Below are positions 43,401 through 55,400 of a DNA stretch of 64,000 nucleotides, one piece after another. Origin of the DNA: Apostichopus japonicus (taxonomy: Eukaryota > Echinodermata > Holothuroidea > Aspidochirotida > Stichopodidae); contig NC_092565.1 in NCBI RefSeq assembly GCF_037975245.1, positions 10,532,499 to 10,596,498 on the forward strand, written 5' to 3'. The notes under the pieces are model-generated. The model searched no databases. It saw nothing but the letters and a program-made list of their open reading frames with translations, and had not been told where the DNA came from. The translations under genes were made by a program, and so were the position numbers. Numbering within the stretch: position 1 is the stretch's first letter; the number at the start of each line of letters is the position of its first letter.

Positions 43401-46400
43401 CAAGTCGACCCGTCTTGGTTTTCCAAATAATTGAATGCATTGAACTTCACCATACTTTTCTGTCAGAAGTTGAATAAACGAAATGGATTTAAAAAAAATA
43501 AGATTTGAATCCATTATGTTGAACTTTCTGTCAGTCTTAATATGATTTTATATGAATTTCAAAATTTTACTTCTTTCTTTGGAACCATTACATAATGGAA
43601 TAAAAAACAATGTGACTTAATTCAGGATTGATTATGTCTCTACGAGATGTTGTTCCCAAGGTGATTAATTCACTGACATGATAACATATCATGTAGAAAA
43701 TATATGACTTATGTAATGACTGGTTGCATCACTGATAGAAACTTTTCATCCAAGGTTTTATTTATTTGTTTGCAGTTGTTTACACCATCTCAGTGCCTTG
43801 TGGTCCAAAACTGGGATATAAACAGTTCTGTCGCTGTCGGTGATCTGTTATGCGAAGCTACAGCAGGTGAGGATCAGATAGTTCAGTGGTGATTTAACCG
43901 ACGTTGTTAAAATAAGCACGTCGCGTTTGTTATGTGCCGTCTCAAAAAAACGTAGGAGCACAACTGATGTTCGTTTGTTGTATAACTGTCACAACAGATC
44001 TTTGCTGCTACTTTTCAAAACAAGTATCAGAAATTTCCATAGCAAAATCAGTTATAAAATAATAATAGATATAAAATTAAACGGAATAAAATGAACACAT
44101 ATAATAACTTGTCATAAGCTATCACAACATATATGTATTAAGTACTCTTCTCTTGCTTTTCAGAGAAAAATCAAACTTTTCATAATTTAGTATGAAAAGT
44201 GTTGTGGTGCTAGAAAGCTATTATGTGGCAAATAACCAACTGCATTAAAATTGCAATTGATTTCATTTTGAGAGCAAATACAAAGACCTCTTTACCACTG
44301 AAATGGGTATCAACTACTTTTGTGGAGCTGCTCGCATAAGAATACTGTCCTTGAGAGACTTTATACATCATATGTTATTTGATACATTTGATACATCATA
44401 TGTCATTTATTCAGGGTAAAAATACAATCAGCTTTGTTTTTCATTTGATATTATGGTTGTCGTCAGTATTAAGCTCCCCACAGCTAATGCCTGGGGAAAC
44501 CCTTGTCTTAAACTTTTAACCACTGTTCACATTTATCCTGGCTATCAGATGAAGTGGAAGAGATTATCAAGACTGGATGCCTAGACTGCTTTTATACCCG
44601 AAGCCAGATTCCTACAGAGATGATGCGATGGATGTTCATTTTGAGTAAGTTTGCCGGGGAGTTTTTTTGTAACCATGTAAACATGAAAAACTTGAATGTT
44701 TAGTCTTGTGCAAGACCAAGACCTTTTCACATGACTTGACAACAGTTACACCCTTGTAATTGGTTACTTGTCATACCCACGCACCTAACAGTGCACGATT
44801 CAAACAATTGGTCATAGGGCAAAACAGTGTGCCACATCGGGTGCAGTGCCCAGACTATATTTTGAAAGTTACATCGCAGTTCTCCATTTATACATCAGGG
44901 TGAAGAGAGGCAGTGGAGAAGTGCCTTGCCCAAGGACACAACATTATGATCTGGCCAGGATGCAAACCTGCAATCCTTAGATCACAAGTCCACTGCATTA
45001 ACCACTTGACCACAACGATTACTTCACATAAATATTGGTGCATGTACTTTAATGGGATCTGTGGTCATGTACAATTCTCATGTACCCACTGTGTTTGTGC
45101 ATGTGTTTGTGTGTATAAGATGTTATCCTTATCTTTGGTTGTCAGTGTCGATTCATCCATCCAGCATGGAAAGTCAGATGTTATATAATACTATCTGGGG
45201 CCAGCTGAACAAAGCTGACCTGATCCTGGATGAGCTTGGATTCCCCTGGAGACCAACCCTAGAGGATATCATAACTGTTCTCCTTAACTACGGTAAAGTA
45301 TTGATCTTATCCACAACAACAGAAGTTAACGATCGGTAGATGGGTTTGAATTGTAATGTCCACTGACATGTATGCAAATTAATTAGCACAAGATACATCA
45401 TGATCACTTTGTGTCGTTAGTATCGCAATGGATGTCTTAGTTACCGCACTTTTAGAATAACTTTTGGTTTTCTTCAGTTTATAAACCTCTAGAAACTTTG
45501 GTCCTCTTGCAAAATTTATGTCAAGACATTGGCAACTTCATAGCATATGATAGTATTATATAAAAATCTAGGCAAGAGTCATTATTGTCATCAAGTGAAT
45601 GTGCTAATAAAGAGGTGATGTTACGAAGTGGAACAGCCAATAGATACGTCAGCCTGGTTCATTCTTTAGAATGAAAATCAGTCAACTTATCTAAATGTTT
45701 CACCTGGTGTCAGTGGTTAAGTTAGGAAGAACATATTAATTGATGGATTCATTGATTGAATAATCGATGGATTGATTGATGTATGGATTGAATAATCGAT
45801 GGATTGATGGATTGATTGATGTATGGATTGATTGATCGATGGATTGATTGATTGATTAATGTATGGATTGATTGATCGATGGATTGATTGATTGATTAAT
45901 GTATGGATTGAATAATCGATGGATTAATTGATTGATTAATATATGGATTGATTAATGGATGTATGGATTGATTGATTTGGTCAACTCTATATTTCAGGAG
46001 GGGATCTTGCTGGTCTGATTAGTGTGTCGGACTATGAGGTCAACAATACATCAAGGTATGTACTTCTGACCCCCTGGCGTATTCGATGTTGATAACAAAT
46101 GTAAAAGATCACCTTCAGCATTTTGCAAACTGATTTGTCGATTTTCATAAATGCCACTTGATATTCAGATTCAGGTAATGAAACCTGCAGTGCCCACAAC
46201 TAAAGTTTTTAATATACTATGGATAATATAGCACACCACTCTCCTGTAATAATACACTATAGAAATATATATATGTGGGTGTTTTTTTTTTTATGGGTAC
46301 CAACTTGTGACATTGATACCAAAATTTCAAAATAAGTTGATTCCATAAAATAGTGACTCATTCTAGAGTTCAGTATATGCAATTGATAATTTACAAGCAA

Positions 46401-49400
46401 TTTTTGAGTTCAGGTCAACCTTATGTGCACAGTCACAACTTTAAATTTGACGTTTCGGATATGGTTCCACGTGTAAGTGGGACACCAAAGTGACTTGAAA
46501 TTCCTATTAGTAGTTACAAGCAGGTTGCACTTCTGAAACTTTTATCACTAATGAACTTTGTAATGAATACCGCTTGAATAAATCAGCACTTGACAGTTCT
46601 TGCTTGAATATGAAAAACAAATTAGTGATGATAACGAAATTGAAATTGGCAATAATGTGGTTTTCCCCATACATTATAAATATTTATTTCATTTTGAGTA
46701 AACAATAGCCTTCAGTTGAATGAAAAACACTTTTGAACATTGCAAAGAAGTTCTTTCACTACATATATCCATTTCATAGAACCATCCAAAAGAATCTTTC
46801 AGCAGATAAGACCAACTATCAAGATTCCCCGTGTAAGTGGGACACAAAATATTTGGTGTCCTGCTTACATATGGAACAACTACCATCGATCAAGTTTATA
46901 TTTGCATAACATCCAACACTATATTAAATATCACTAGCAGTAACAAGAAACAATTCATTAGCAGTGTCTACATGGTAACTAGATACAAGTCTGAACTTGA
47001 TATCCAGAATTAATATAACTGGAACAAACTGTATACTGCACTGAAATCCGAAAAGGAAGTCATGCTGACCATAAGTCAGGTAAGTTTGGTATATTGTATT
47101 AATTCCTTACTAGAAGAACCATCCCACAGAAATCAAAACCATTGCAGTGTTTCCTTAGCTAAGTACACTGGTTAATAGAGAGGTGGGTATGAGGAGGAGG
47201 GGAAGGGGGTCAACAGGAATAATTGTTATCAACCTGCATACACTGTTACATAACTTCCTATTTACTGTACAGTAAGGTGTACAGTACACTAACAAAAAAA
47301 TTGTACGCAAACAAGGCTTGAGAGTGGACGGTTTTCTTTCTTCTTACAAACAAACAATTAAACTCCAACATTTAAAAAACAATTGAGAATATTAAAATGT
47401 AATTATATGAACTTTCACTATTAAACTTGCCAATTAAAGTGCAAAGTTTTTCATACGATAATATACTGTACTCGCTATCAATTAACTAACAAAGTTTGTC
47501 CTTTATTTTCAAATTTAAATTCATTTTCATGCAGTTTCCACAGACATCAAACAAGGCTTGAGAGTGGACGGTTTACTTTCTTCTTACAAACAAACATTTA
47601 AACTTCAACATTTAAAAAAAATTTAGAATATTAAAATGTAATTGTATGAACTTTAACTATTAAACTTGCCAATTAAAGTGCACAGTTTTGTCATATGATA
47701 AAACACTCACTTTCATTAAAATAACAAAGTATGTCCTTTATTTTCAAATTTAAATTCATGTTCCTGCAGTTTCAACAGACATCAAACAAGACTTGAGAGT
47801 GGACGGTTTTCTTTCTTCAATAACATTTAAACTCCAACATTTAATTTTTTTTTAGAATATTAAAATGCAATTATGAACTTTCACTTTGAAACTTGCCAAT
47901 TAAAAGTGCAGTTTTGTCATATGATAATACACTCACTTTCAATTAACTAACAAAGTATGTCCTTTCAAATTTAAATTCATGTTGAGGCAGTTTCAACAAA
48001 CAGATCTACTTTTTTCTTGTAAATAACTCAAACAGTAACTTTATTAATTTTAAAATATGGAATCGTGCAAAGAAAACACTTGCCACTAATAAGTCTTCTT
48101 TTAATGCATTTTCCAACAAGAAATCCATACAAAATAACTTTCTGACCTATGGCTACCAATTAATAACTTTATGCCTCCACCCACCTAAATTATCTGCTAC
48201 ATTCAACTGCTTAATCATTTTTAGATTCATCAAGATGAAGAATTACAAAACTCAATAAAAGTTACTTTTGAATGCAATCGCAATGCATCACACACATACA
48301 TACACACATCATCACCATTGCATAGATTCATGTGGACTTTGGCATGGAATAAAAAGTGGGAATTGATTACTAGACTTCATGCTGAACGTTCATTTTCATT
48401 TCATTATACAGAGCATCAACCTTTGCTTGACCAACAATTGCAAAAGGCCCATTTCCAATCATGTGAAGTGGCCCATGAATAACATACTTTCCATGAATTT
48501 TCTCACTGTCAGGCCTTTTTGGCCAATCATATATCATGCTCTTTGCGTTTCGCACCCTGTGCAGGAATTTAAAGATAAAGAAATCCCCATCTAAATCAAC
48601 TAATTTTCCAACATAGAACTCGTTGTCATAAAATACTGCATAGTATTTTTCTTTTTCCATGTTAATGCCCCGTTGATGTGGTCCAATCTTATATCTAGTC
48701 ATTTGAGGGTCAGCAATGACTTCTGCAGAAGTATTAGGAGGAGAATCATAAGTCTTGGAGTTGCTGGGAGTAACATCATCAGTGTCACCATTGTCACCTG
48801 CAAAAAAGGATGTAATGTCTTCCTTTAAACAAACATAACTGTACATACATTGTACATTAATGTTAAAGCTGAAAGAAAATTGGTTGAAAAGAGAGAAATT
48901 CAAGGTATTAGGGAAAGGTTGAGTGCTCTCAGGTTTTGGATGGTAGCTATATTATATTGTAATAGTGAAATTCAGAGACCTATTGCTATTTGAAATTCCC
49001 ACAACAAATTTAAAGCTGAAAGAGGAACCCCAGTTCTAAATTGTAGAATATCAGTAGTACATTTTGCTGAATAGAGTTTATTACCTACATCAGAAACTAC
49101 AGCAAATAAATTATATATTATATTCATGGTATTATAGCATGAACTTGTAGCAGTCAATGCATATTTAAAACAAAGAGAGAAAAAAAATATTTGGTTGTCC
49201 TTCATTAGGTACTATACCTTGTGCAGACAGTTTAAAATTCTTCCAATCATTCACATAGAGATGGTTTTCACAGTCTGTGTCATCATCCTTCACACAAGCT
49301 GTGCAGAAACAGGACAGATTTCGGACAGAAACGACACCACCTTTGATGCTTTTCACACAATGGATATTTCTAGTACCTGGCACAGTCTTAACTGATCTGT

Positions 49401-52400
49401 GGTATCTTTCCCTGTCAACTTCCTCCTGATGTACATAAAAGATTGTGCGTAGAAACTTGTCACAACAGTTGCCAGACTCTATACCCCTTGTCAGCTTCTC
49501 CTGACAATAGTCATACAAGCCCCTTGCATCTTTGATGATGACGCTCCCAGTCTTGACAGCAGTTGATGCATGAAACTTGACCACAGCACTCTCACCGTCG
49601 CTGGCACCCTTTCCATGACGGGTGCCTGAAAAATTATGTTGGATGGGGAACCCATAATCTTCAATAGAGTAGCTTATGTCCGATATGGGGCCTTTCGACT
49701 TGTACTGACTACTGCATCCATCTGAATAGCGGTACAGCCTGGTGACTGGTAGCTTCCGAGCCAAAGTAAGGTGTTGGCAAACAACCTGCTGGAATGCATT
49801 AACAAGATGATAGTCATGGGTTAGGTCATTGCTAATCATAATACAGGATTCAGTGACTAGCTGATCACACTGAGGGCACCTATAATAATTGACAATGGGA
49901 TGGACTGTTACAGAATCTTGCGAGTAGTATGCGCTCTGGACTTCTCTTTGATATGCACATTTGTAGTTTTCAGCAAAGTCCAAAATGCTGAGTACGGAGC
50001 CAGAGGGGAGATTCTGTTTTAATTGTAATTCTTGCTTGCGTTGCCAGTCCTTATTGAATAGATGTTGTGCAAATGGTACTGTTTCCACTTTCAGTTCTTC
50101 AATCATATCTTTCACTGTTCCGGTTTTGATTATAAGTGAGCGTTTCTTAACAGCCTTGGTTGCTTTGTTGGAATGGTACATTGTCGATACAAGTTCCCAT
50201 CTCTTCCACTGAATTTGTTTCTCTTCCTGTGTCAGCAAAGGTGCCAGGTGCGTATCTATTTTGTCCACTCCACAAGTATCACATTCCCTCATAATACATA
50301 TCAGTTTATGAAATTCTTCTCCTGTGGACTTCTCACAGAGGGTAAAACTAGTTAATGCATAAGGATCTTTCACATGTTGAGAATGAGCATCAATGGCAGA
50401 CAACTGAGCATTGGCTGAATTTATTTTCAACTGTATGTTTTCACAATACTCACACAGACACCCACTGTACTTTGCTTGTTGTTTGGTTTTAACATGACTG
50501 GGACGTAGTTTTGAGAAAGTTGAGAAGGAGACCTGTCCATCTGGGTAACATTTGTTGTAGAGCTGGTGTGATTCCTTCAAACTTCGGTCCATGATGTACC
50601 TGGGTTTTCCAGACTTCTTACCGACGAACTTCTTGTCTGGCAATTCATTTGAACTAATTTCATAGTAATGTTGAATGTCTTCAATTGTTGAGAGGGACAC
50701 TCTTTTCCTTCCTGCAGAATATCGGATTGCCTTGCCAAGAACCTTTCTACTGACACCAAAACGTCTGCTAGCTTGTCGTTGAAACTTGCATTTCTTAACC
50801 ACTGAAAGGATTGAGGCTAAGGATCTTCTTTTCAAGGAGGTCTTTGGTTCTTTGAGACCTATACTCACAGCATCCATAATCACATCTTCTAATTGCTGTT
50901 TCTTACTAACTCTAACACCAGCACTGCTAAAAGCAGATGTTTTAGTAGGAGAAGCAGTGCTAATCAAATCAATGGTAGTTGCAACAAATGCAGCTGTTTT
51001 CTTTGGCATGCTTTTCCTTGCTCTTTCTAAGGCTTTTCGCTTTGCAGCATCTGATCGGATGTCAATACTCTCCTCCCCTTCCTTCTGTTTGGACTTTAAC
51101 TCTTCTGTCATTAGCCTTAGTTCTTCCTCCTTTGCACGTAGCTGTTGTTCAAGCTCTTTTACACGTTGTGTTTCTGCTTGCAGCTTTTTCTGCTCTTCTT
51201 TAAAAAATTTGCTCATCGTATCTTTCTTTGATTGGTGATACTTTTCTCTTCTTCTCGCTTTAACTTTCTCTCTTTCCATCATCGACAAATTTGCACGCTG
51301 CTGCTGTTTCCGCAATCTGTCTTTGGATTTTTGTTTTTCATGTGCTGTTCTTGTCATTGGTTTCCTTTTTTTCTCTGCTTCTTTCTGAACTCGTCGTCGA
51401 GCTTGGTATTTCTTCATTCTTTTACGGCATCCATCATTGTAAGCCACTTTCCTATTGTACCATACAAGAGCATTTTCCTGTTCTGCTGGAGAGAGGTTTC
51501 TCTTGCGTTGCAATTCTGTCTCTGCAACTGCCATCTCGAGCCTGTATTGCTTACTGTAAGCTTTTGCTTTTTCTTTTTCACTCTCATATTTCTTAGGATT
51601 CTTGATTTTTAGTTTGTCCCTCCAGTTCTGGGTCTTTGACTTTTTCTTCTCTAGCTGTAATGTCTCCTCAGCGCCCCTGGAAGATTCCATACTCCTGGAG
51701 GCATCATGACCACAGTCTGCCGGCTTTACGAGGCGAACCCGGAGATTAAATGGCAGTGGCATATTTCACCACAAACTATACCTGCAATGCAATAAAAAAT
51801 GTAGCAGATGAAATAAAGTCCTTATTACATCATAAAAAAAATCAAAAAAGATCACAAAAAACTGAGAGGATTGCTTCCTGGGCAGGGGGATAAAAAATAT
51901 TAAATGAGGGGGGGGGGAGCAATACTAGAGACTTGAAAAAGATCAGCTTCAAATAATCAACACTTGAGAGTTGTACTATTTTTATTAGGCCTTTTATTAT
52001 TTTTCAAGGTGAGAAGGGGGGGGGGGGTGGGGAGGAACCTATGATAGCCTATGTCATAGACAGTTCTCTGGTTAGATCCTCGATGCCTGTTTGTTGAGCT
52101 AGCTCATCCTTTCTCAACCTGCTCATTTCTGCCAGGGCACTTAACTATGCTAAAAAATGTAGCAGATGAAATAAAGTCCTTATTACATCATAAAAAAAAT
52201 AAAAAAAGATCACAAAAAACTGAGAAGATTGCTTCCTGGGCGTGTATTTTTTTTTCCAGGACGAACGTGGGCATCGGCCAATCAAATCCCTGGATTCCAA
52301 ACATGTGACGCTTTTTCCAAAAACATGTTCTGAATCTTTTTTCCTAGTTTTGACCCCAGATTATGAACGACAATCCTGCAATTTCATAGAAACTGTATCC

Positions 52401-55400
52401 TTAACCCACTTTCTAAATCCTAACTCTGATTTCAAAGGAATTTGTAAATTCCTGAAAAACCTGAAACCCACGTTCGTCCTGGGAAAAAAAAAGCTTCCTG
52501 GGAAGGGGGTAAAAAAATTAAATGAGGGGGGTAGAGCAATACTGTATAGACTTGAAAAAGATCAGCTTCAAATAATCAACACTTGACAGTTGTACTATTT
52601 TTATTAGGACTTTTATTATTTTTCAAGGTGAGAAGGGGGGGGGGTGGGGAGGAACCTATGATAGCCTATGTCATAGACAGTTCTCTGGTTAGATCCTCGA
52701 TGCCTGTTTGTTGAGCTCATCCTTTCTCAACCTGCTCATTTCTGCCAGGGCACTTAACTATGCTATCCTAATCATAGCCTAATGTTATACTTATAGCTAT
52801 GTCTATGTTAACACTGGGCTTAGTAACGTTAGGCTAGGCTTATACGTCTATGAAGTGAAAATAAAGGTATTAAAAAGATTTAGGCAAAGAATACTGAGCT
52901 ATAAAACCAAACAGACCGAATTCCATACTTTTCGCTTCACAAAAGATGCCTAAAATCAACGAGAGTTTCTCATCGTAACAACGTCATATAGGCTCGGACC
53001 TAGGCCTAGCCTACACAACATTTTGGTGTCCTGCAACGAACGTTACGTTGTTACCAGTATTATTCCATCAATTCAATTATAATAAACGACAAAGCGTTTT
53101 AATCAGCTTAAAATGTGTTTGAAGCTACTTCGCGGAAAACATCCTACACATTATCCTACTCAGCCGCGCTTCGAACGTTGCATTTTAATATACGCTTGCA
53201 GTAATTAACAGTTTTGTTTACATCGTAAGTTCAGGACACGAACACCATAGTGTCACATTTGACAGCAACACTACATTGTGAAAGTAACCTTAGGATACCT
53301 CCGAGATAAACGATTACGGTGAGGGACTTTGACTTCAGTATTAACCTCGATCTAAATGTTTTGCATAGTTTAAGCTTCAAAAAAATATTTCTCACCTGTT
53401 TTTCTGCCACAGAAAGTTGTCACAACGTAAAATTAGCTACATCGTAAAAGTTAGGACACGAAATAAAACTTCAGCTTTTGTTTTCGTCTGCTACCATTTG
53501 TGTTTACGTAAAAGCGGGAATTCCCTCATCTACATCCGGGACATTGAATTAGCAGACGATAGTAAGCTTTACGCAATGTGTTAGTAAATACTGATCACTG
53601 AAGTTTATAACAACGTAAAATATTTTTAGGACACGAAATGAAAGACTAAAAGTTTCACCTGTTTATTTTCGAGACACTTTAAGCAATACCGTAACATTGT
53701 TTTCATTTATAGTATTGTTTGTCATCATTAACTCTTAAGCAGATAAAACAATGTAGTACATGCCTTTTATTTTCAAATATACATGGTGGAAAACTGATGT
53801 TCCCTACGTAAGTGTTAAGGACACGAAAACTTACGTCGTAAGTTGCAAAGTGATCACTTCACTGCATAACGAACACGAACCAATATAAAGCGAAATTTCG
53901 AATAACGTGAAGGAGACCTATGTTATTATTTACTTCGAACAAATAATCGACGAATTTACCCTGTTATGATAAAATACAGCATATTTAATAACAACTGTTG
54001 AAATGTCACAGATAAACAGCAAAAAATGATGGGACACCATTAACAAATCTACAAAAAAAACATGGTTGTCAACACATTTATTTTCTTGTGTTGGTACCAT
54101 AACAAAGACATATTAATGCACATAAATATTTACCACATGAATAATTCATTGCAACTTAATAGTGAGAAAGGATTAGTACACAAGGAAAGTGGTGCATTAA
54201 ACAGCATTGGTACCCATAAAAAAATAAACACCCATGTACATTTATCCATGCATACAAATATAATATTGTTTATTCATCTCTTGTAACAAGGGGTGAGAAG
54301 AGTGAGTCCATAGAGAGCAGAGACACCTACTGGAAGGATGAGGAAGTGTATGGGATGTTACTGGAATCACACATAGGACTGGTTGTCAAGATTATTACTC
54401 AGGCCATCATCACCTACATCAACCTGAAAGAGTAAGTTTAGTCTTCTGTTACAGTCAGAGACATGGGGAATGGTGTGGGAGGGGAAGGAGGGAGGGGGAG
54501 TGGGAAAGTCACTCCTTCTTTGTTAAGACTATCTTGACTTTCTAAGTTCTCATGGCACTTCCCTTCAGCCTCACTGTAATTCCCATCATGATGTATCACC
54601 ATTCATAGCTGAACATTTCAATGACAACATTCTTTCTCCATCACCACATTCTCTTTCCCCTCCCCCTCCTCTCCCCTCCCCTCCCCCTCCCATCCTACCC
54701 ACCCCTTTCCAAGAAAGAGAAACCAACCTTTGTAAAAGCAGTATTTTTTTAATAATACATGTGTCTCATTGGCATTCTTATAGGGACAGTAGTTAGGGCT
54801 GGTTGTAAGATGGCAGTGAATTTTTTAGCATTGTGTAGCAGTGTTTTTTTTTCTTTGGGGCAGGGAGGGGGTGTGGGGGAATAAGTTCAGCCATTTGGTA
54901 CTGTTGATGATCTCTGTTATGTTCGTAGAGACTTCCCATTTTTTTTCCACCCTTAATATCCACCTCCATTTTGTTACAGCTGTTCAGGTTACCGTACAGA
55001 AGAGTTACAGTGTATGCTTATCGTCATGTTCAGGATTGCACTGGATAAGAATATTTTAGGGTAAGAGTTGGTTATTTTTTGGGTACTTTGTAATGATAAA
55101 GATTTCTACTAAATATGATAATGTTCTGTTGACATGGAATCAACAGCAGTACTATGCAGTAGCATGGCATTTCCATACATTAATCACAATATGCAAGTCC
55201 ACAATTATTGAAGAAGAGATCTCTTGAAGCATACCTCCAACATTTCAAGTCAAGCTAACTGTACACCAGTTAGCAACCTAAGATGCTTGCTCTGTTATAT
55301 GATAGGGCCCTCCTGTCGACATGCAAGGGAACCAATTTATGTAAAGTTTATTAAAATCACAGAAATCTACTGCGTCATTCACAAGTAAACCCCTGCATGC

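Follow-up and report, generated by a model that had tools for sequence, protein, structure and literature searches.

The window, a 64,000-nucleotide stretch of the Apostichopus japonicus genome (assembly GCF_037975245.1, contig NC_092565.1, positions 10,532,499 to 10,596,498 of the forward strand), contains a DNA transposon of 7,957 bp at positions 46277-54233, flanked on both sides by ATGT. Very probably this is a complete, recently mobile class II transposon of the cut-and-paste type, most likely Sola2-like, with a DDD transposase, a 4-bp staggered insertion and deleted copies that were moved in trans. We regard it as a recently mobile cut-and-paste element because it has a second full-length copy of nearly the same sequence, deleted copies with the same termini, 4-bp target-site duplications (TSDs) and empty sites.

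Ends, copies and empty sites

The element is bounded by terminal inverted repeats (TIRs) of 27 bp, the left one at 46277-46303 (plus strand) and the right one at 54207-54233 (minus strand), which agree at 26 of 27 positions. The single mismatch is T/A at position 9, and the inverted similarity ends past base 27. The termini read GGG...CCC, and the two ATGT TSDs lie at 46273-46276 and 54234-54237. An earlier, sequence-only reading of the window had proposed this extent, the TIRs and the ATGT duplication, and its coordinates proved exact to the base.

The 424 bases at either end of the element served as queries against the haploid genome assembly (35 contigs, 671,581,487 bases) and gave 13 matches for the first 424 and 8 for the last 424; the resulting copy counts are lower bounds. 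At least seven copies have both ends, as agreed by the two end searches: the window copy and loci L001 to L006, all of which share the left TIR end. L001, on contig C15, is a second full-length copy of 7,959 bp with the TSD ATTA. It is 99.5% identical to the window copy, with 22 substitutions over approximately 7.9 kb. L002-L006 are internally deleted, have the same termini and range from 2,832 to 4,415 bp. At position 9 of the left TIR, both full-length copies have T and all five deletion derivatives have A. The remaining end matches belong to related families or, in L007 and L008, are fragments.

The 4-bp TSD is exact in six of the seven copies: ATGT, ATTA and, in four copies, ATAT, which is of the AWWT type; the seventh has an inexact pair. 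The flanks differ among all seven copies and the similarity stops at the TIRs. Since both ends are found again at six further loci, with flanks that differ, the ends of the element are not a chance match.

L006 lies in a tandem array of approximately 53-bp units. Neighbouring units of the array run uninterrupted through the point of insertion and carry a single ATAT (junction-equivalent positions of about 378, 325, 272 and 219 of L023, identified by eye); these units are paralogous empty sites. A query with the flanks of L005 returned only the flanks of L005 itself. The earlier description of the element as a complete, young DNA transposon is thus borne out by L001, the five deleted copies, the exact TSDs and the paralogous empty sites. 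Further copies and empty sites, on which that description had been made to depend, were looked for in the genome and both were found.

Transposase gene and catalytic core

The transposase gene is on the minus strand of the window. Exon 1 (49218-51762), recognised from the open frame, splice prediction, alignment and modelling, encodes a Lys/Arg-rich N-terminus, a cysteine-containing segment and a DDD RNase H-like core. It is followed by a predicted GT...AG intron (48798-49217) and by exon 2 (48370-48797, including the stop codon), whose product has the predicted fold of a small C-terminal beta-barrel, Tudor/chromo-barrel-like. The predicted splice joins 51762-49218 to 48797-48370 and yields 990 codons with no internal stop. 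L001 also encodes 990 codons, with six amino-acid and two silent differences from the window copy, in keeping with the intact 990-codon transposase predicted from the sequence alone. The predicted intron is supported by comparison with the relative L015, which holds the catalytic core and the C-terminal domain in one 930-codon frame. L011 contains a relative of exon 2 that is 54% identical. The intact gene suggests that the element is autonomous.

A search of the genome with the transposase protein listed 54 matches, among which 10 loci have stop-free frames of 674-930 codons: the two full-length copies and eight relatives. For this genome, the earlier statement that elements of such size are seldom found whole is not borne out.

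Three putative catalytic Asp residues are invariant in an alignment of eight relatives (8/8 at each position), therefore the triad is DDD. In the numbering of the 990-residue window protein these are D595 (in DFAENY; codon at 49978-49980), D681 (in SDGC; 49720-49722) and D722 (in HGKGxxDG; 49597-49599), which correspond to core columns 266, 352 and 393; all three codons are on the minus strand. The Glu two residues past D722 is replaced in two of these eight aligned relatives (L016 and L018).

Residues 330-848 were modelled with AlphaFold2 (mean predicted local distance difference test score, pLDDT, 77.4; predicted template modelling score, pTM, 0.67). In the modelled core the three Asp residues sit where two strands end and close to where a late helix begins. 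When the Foldseek candidates were aligned with VIA-align, retroviral integrases came out on top (Z 9.1, root-mean-square deviation (rmsd) 3.6, 143 residues aligned), followed by Mos1 (Z 8.3, rmsd 22.5, 233 aligned) and IstA (Z 8.3, rmsd 4.3, 162 aligned). An RNase H fold of the core is supported by the model, not proven by it.

The product of exon 2 was modelled as a small barrel (pLDDT 72.7, with the first approximately 40 residues below 50). The best VIA-align matches were the chromo domain of MRG15 (Z 7.3, rmsd 4.1, 72 aligned) and MRG701 (Z 6.9, rmsd 3.7, 67 aligned), and BAH, PWWP and Tudor domains were also among the 50 matches listed. Foldseek alone gave no significant match for the barrel model. 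In Pfam, HAS-barrel was the best of eight matches (E 0.016, in two of eight), and there was no Tudor or chromo model among them. Because the Z scores are below 8 and the sequence searches gave nothing convincing, we treat the Tudor/chromo-barrel-like assignment of exon 2 as a lead, and any function of the barrel is putative. A passage of a 2025 paper (PMC12477816) describes a Gypsy element that bears a Tudor domain; as far as its authors know, no transposable element with such a domain had been reported before. In the light of that passage a Tudor-like barrel on a DNA transposase would, if true, be noteworthy.

Related families in the genome

L009 encodes a protein 49% identical to the window transposase. 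It has the same architecture, a length of 7,278 bp and the TSD ATAT. L010 is a broken relative of L009 (8,099 bp, TSD ATGT). L025 (4,438 bp, TSD AGAT) and L026 (4,381 bp, TSD ATAT) also share the architecture; their terminal 56 bp are 86-88% identical to those of the window element, and tblastn found no match to the window transposase in them. The 4-bp TSDs of L009, L010, L025 and L026 are all exact. The termini of L012, found with relaxed thresholds, are single-copy candidates. No termini with an exact 4-bp duplication were found for L011, L013/L014, L015 and L017. L013 and L014 represent a further family, 98.8% identical over a 5-kb aligned piece and 96.9% over another 1.9 kb, with an 818-codon frame each, and this family also appears young from its sequence.

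Classification and alternative explanations

The sequence-only reading had found no named family to which the element could be assigned with confidence. This can now be narrowed, by the DDD triad and the mostly AT-rich 4-bp TSDs, to Sola, and we consider it probable that the element is a Sola2-like member of this superfamily as described in the literature. The portion of PMC10741241 that deals with Sola gives a DDD transposase, a 4-bp TSD, a size of mostly 2-9 kb and TIRs of 11-1124 bp. For Sola2, the relevant passages of PMC3627910 give AT-rich 4-bp TSDs (AWWT in one set; ATAT, AAAT and ATTT in another) and an 888-aa Sola2-type transposase of Dictyostelium fasciculatum. The element resembles Sola2, as characterised in those passages, in its DDD triad, its 4-bp mostly AT-rich TSDs, the length of its TIRs and its size; the transposase is also close in length, with 990 aa versus 888 aa. 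It differs in that the TSDs found here include ATGT, ATTA and AGAT.

Other superfamilies fit less well. Kolobok, hAT, P, MuDR and Dada elements are likewise cut-and-paste transposons with DDD/E transposases, and in the part of PMC9587614 concerned with them they have a C/DxxH motif between the second D and the last E. Inspection by eye of the window protein between D681 and D722 revealed no C or D three residues ahead of either H; GTRHGKG is present instead, and this group is disfavoured because C/DxxH is missing. The TTAA duplication of piggyBac and Kolobok was found in none of the seven copies, which disfavours these two. Ginger elements share the 4-6 bp duplications and the integrase-like fold, but according to the lines on Ginger in PMC10741241 their TIRs are 40-270 bp long with TG...CA ends, whereas here the TIRs have 27 bp, the ends are GG...CC and there is no Pfam integrase match. 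Ginger is disfavoured because of these termini.

Several observations weigh against a Sola2-like cut-and-paste element with an RNase H-type core. The assignment to Sola was made by description. The TSDs ATGT and ATTA are outside AWWT, L002 sits in an AT microsatellite and has the inexact pair ATAT versus ACAT, and in L024, a member of the L009 family, the pair is ACAT versus ACTT. Pfam, NCBIfam and PDB sequence searches gave no meaningful match, and Foldseek alone found no match for the core model at E<=0.001. In VIA-align, Argonaute-type RNase H proteins score in the integrase range and the Z values of the core are near a level that a common arrangement can reach. Some of these points would equally suit the same mechanism driven by a transposase of an undescribed superfamily, an explanation that we think unlikely, if worth keeping in mind. 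It would agree with the lack of a convincing Pfam or NCBIfam match for any of the eight aligned relatives, with the TSDs ATTA, ATGT and AGAT, and with a likeness to Sola that is by description. The DDD triad, the TSDs, the size and the TIR length fit the published Sola descriptions in the passages cited, however, and the single-copy candidate TIRs of L016 (TSD ATTT) and L018 (TSD AAAT) fit the Sola2 pattern. Taken as a whole, the element seems to represent a new family within a kind of DNA transposon that is already known, new in that it has no Pfam or NCBIfam name.

The long intact open frame could also be expected of an old immobile relic or of a transposon-derived gene kept by the host. We find this very improbable, as two copies whose flanks and TSDs differ are 99.5% identical over their full length, and the deleted copies are 98.8-99.8% identical to one another. 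That a single haploid assembly yielded no more than two full-length copies might suggest that the copies arose by segmental duplication or as an assembly artefact; this is the least probable of the alternatives, since the flanks differ at all seven copies with the similarity ending at the TIRs, and the TSDs differ among the copies.

For the Sola2-like cut-and-paste transposon we propose the following mechanism. The 990-residue transposase would bind both 27-bp TIRs as well as the RGGACAC sites near them, described below, and would bring the two ends together. The DDD RNase H-type active site would then excise the element, and AT-rich target DNA, most often ATAT, would be cut with a 4-bp stagger and joined to it. 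Full-length copies would move the internally deleted copies in trans.

Elements that are young and intact, from superfamilies that have been little studied, are candidates for tests of activity and for use in gene delivery, and this transposase goes unrecognised by Pfam and NCBIfam even though several intact lineages of it exist in the genome. Testable hypotheses on end recognition and self-regulation follow from the conserved subterminal sites and the in-frame derivatives.

Subterminal RGGACAC sites

Ten copies of the motif RGGACAC are present in the element (counted over 46281-54229), versus 1.2 expected from first-order Markov simulation (maximum 5 in 300 simulations); the remaining 56 kb of the window holds three. 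As the motif was chosen after inspecting the element, this count is biased if taken by itself. Nine of the ten sites lie close to the ends, no more than 590 bp away on the left and 1,203 bp on the right, and the tenth is in coding sequence. The left sites (span 46479-46862) start at 46479(+), 46839(+) and 46862(-), 203, 563 and 586 bp from the left end. The right sites (span 53026-54037) start at 53032(-), 53233, 53453, 53628, 53818 and 54031(+), 1202, 1001, 781, 606, 416 and 203 bp from the right end. All nine subterminal sites are kept in each of the five deletion derivatives, including the shortest.

Four sites are present in L009, at 202, 566 and 589 on the left (203, 563 and 586 in the window copy) and at 417 on the right (416 in the window copy), in 800-bp ends that are otherwise approximately 50% identical in a forced alignment. 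The left sites stand out from this background, with 20 and 18 of 22 bases identical; the right site does not (14 of 22). L010 and L024 keep three such sites each. In L025 and L026 an extended form of the left site, CGTGTAA..GGGACACCAAA, is found at different positions. The motif count is low in the more distant families (three each in L012, L013 and L014, one each in L016 and L018), and the same site positions were not found in these, among them L013/L014, for which no ends with an exact 4-bp duplication were found. We take the subterminal RGGACAC sites to be probable binding sites of the transposase.

The spacings in the right array are 213, 190, 175, 220 and 201 bp, an evenness that has a P of about 8e-5 against random points (post hoc, right array only). 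Spacings of 201-204 bp also occur in L025 (540-943) and L026 (599-1004, both in element coordinates), there within repeated DNA. A spacing of approximately 200 bp is close to the nucleosome repeat. One could imagine a chromatin-guided transposon, with a histone-reader-like C-terminal barrel, sites at nucleosome-repeat distances by its ends and derivatives that supply the C-terminal part as a stand-alone 155-residue regulator of transposition. We consider this combination quite improbable.

Deletion derivatives

L002, L004, L005 and L006 lack the segment 48782-51701 (minus strand), within a few bases of microhomology. At their common junction, equivalent to 51762-51702 joined to 48781-48370 of the window, the reading frame runs on from approximately codon 20 of exon 1 into exon 2, and the intron and the catalytic core are gone. 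The resulting 155-codon frame is intact in L002, L005 and L006 (three of the five derivatives) and broken in L004 (66 codons). L003 is deleted further, and no start codon was found in it. The short microhomology at the shared junction was noted by eye; microhomology of this kind is expected of interrupted gap repair. Because the derivatives are 98.8-99.8% identical to one another, one derivative probably spread after it had arisen, most simply, it would seem, by trans-mobilisation.

The stand-alone 155-codon product could act as a regulator. KP-type derivatives of the P element are internally deleted copies with a shortened, in-frame transposase frame. The derivatives described here are alike in this respect, and differ in that they retain mainly the C-terminal domain and that repression is hypothetical. 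A literature search for deletion-derivative repressors gave no results. An in-frame fusion is expected by chance in about one of three deletions. When exon 2 was compared pairwise among the derivatives (135 shared codons, 10 pairs), each pair differed by 0-3 silent and 2-9 replacement changes, numbers too small for a test of selection. L024 (G000:C8:39873365-39878864) is an independent derivative of the L009 family that lacks nearly the same exon (approximately 2746-5154 of L009). Its start codon is lost, and it therefore speaks against a general regulator role of the derivatives.

Distribution outside the genome, host gene and internal repeats

Tblastn searches with the transposase gave no match in phages. 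Among viral contigs, 26 stretches fitted the search pattern and none was a relative. Among prokaryote genomes, 23 stretches fitted and one, L022 (JAAEPJ010000558.1), was a relative (26% identity). L022 is a 705-codon related frame on a 4-kb contig filed as a bacterial metagenome-assembled genome, and we suspect eukaryotic contamination.

A left-end and a right-end match in the same orientation on contig C16 suggested a giant element of 57 kb. This candidate was rejected because the left end, L019 (the same as L025), belongs to another family and has its own right end 4.4 kb away, with the TSD AGAT/AGAT. The candidate's right end, L008, is a relic with 89% identity.

The element, with its gene on the minus strand, is inserted among plus-strand open frames, which the sequence-only reading had attributed to SLF2. 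The searches made for the host gene neither confirmed nor excluded SLF2. It was not named by a Pfam search with eight of these frames, by a PDB search with joined exon guesses or by a Pfam search with a longer join at E up to 10. PF14816 gave no match in the genome, and it matched none of 14 control genomes either.

The internal repeats noted earlier are present; the regulatory role ascribed to them in that reading is putative. Three direct repeats of approximately 235 bp each lie at about 47308-48002, between the 3' end of the gene and the left terminus. Repeated pieces are also found upstream of the transposase start (51793-52765), where 51793-51883 pairs with 52151-52241 and 51926-52152 with 52545-52765.

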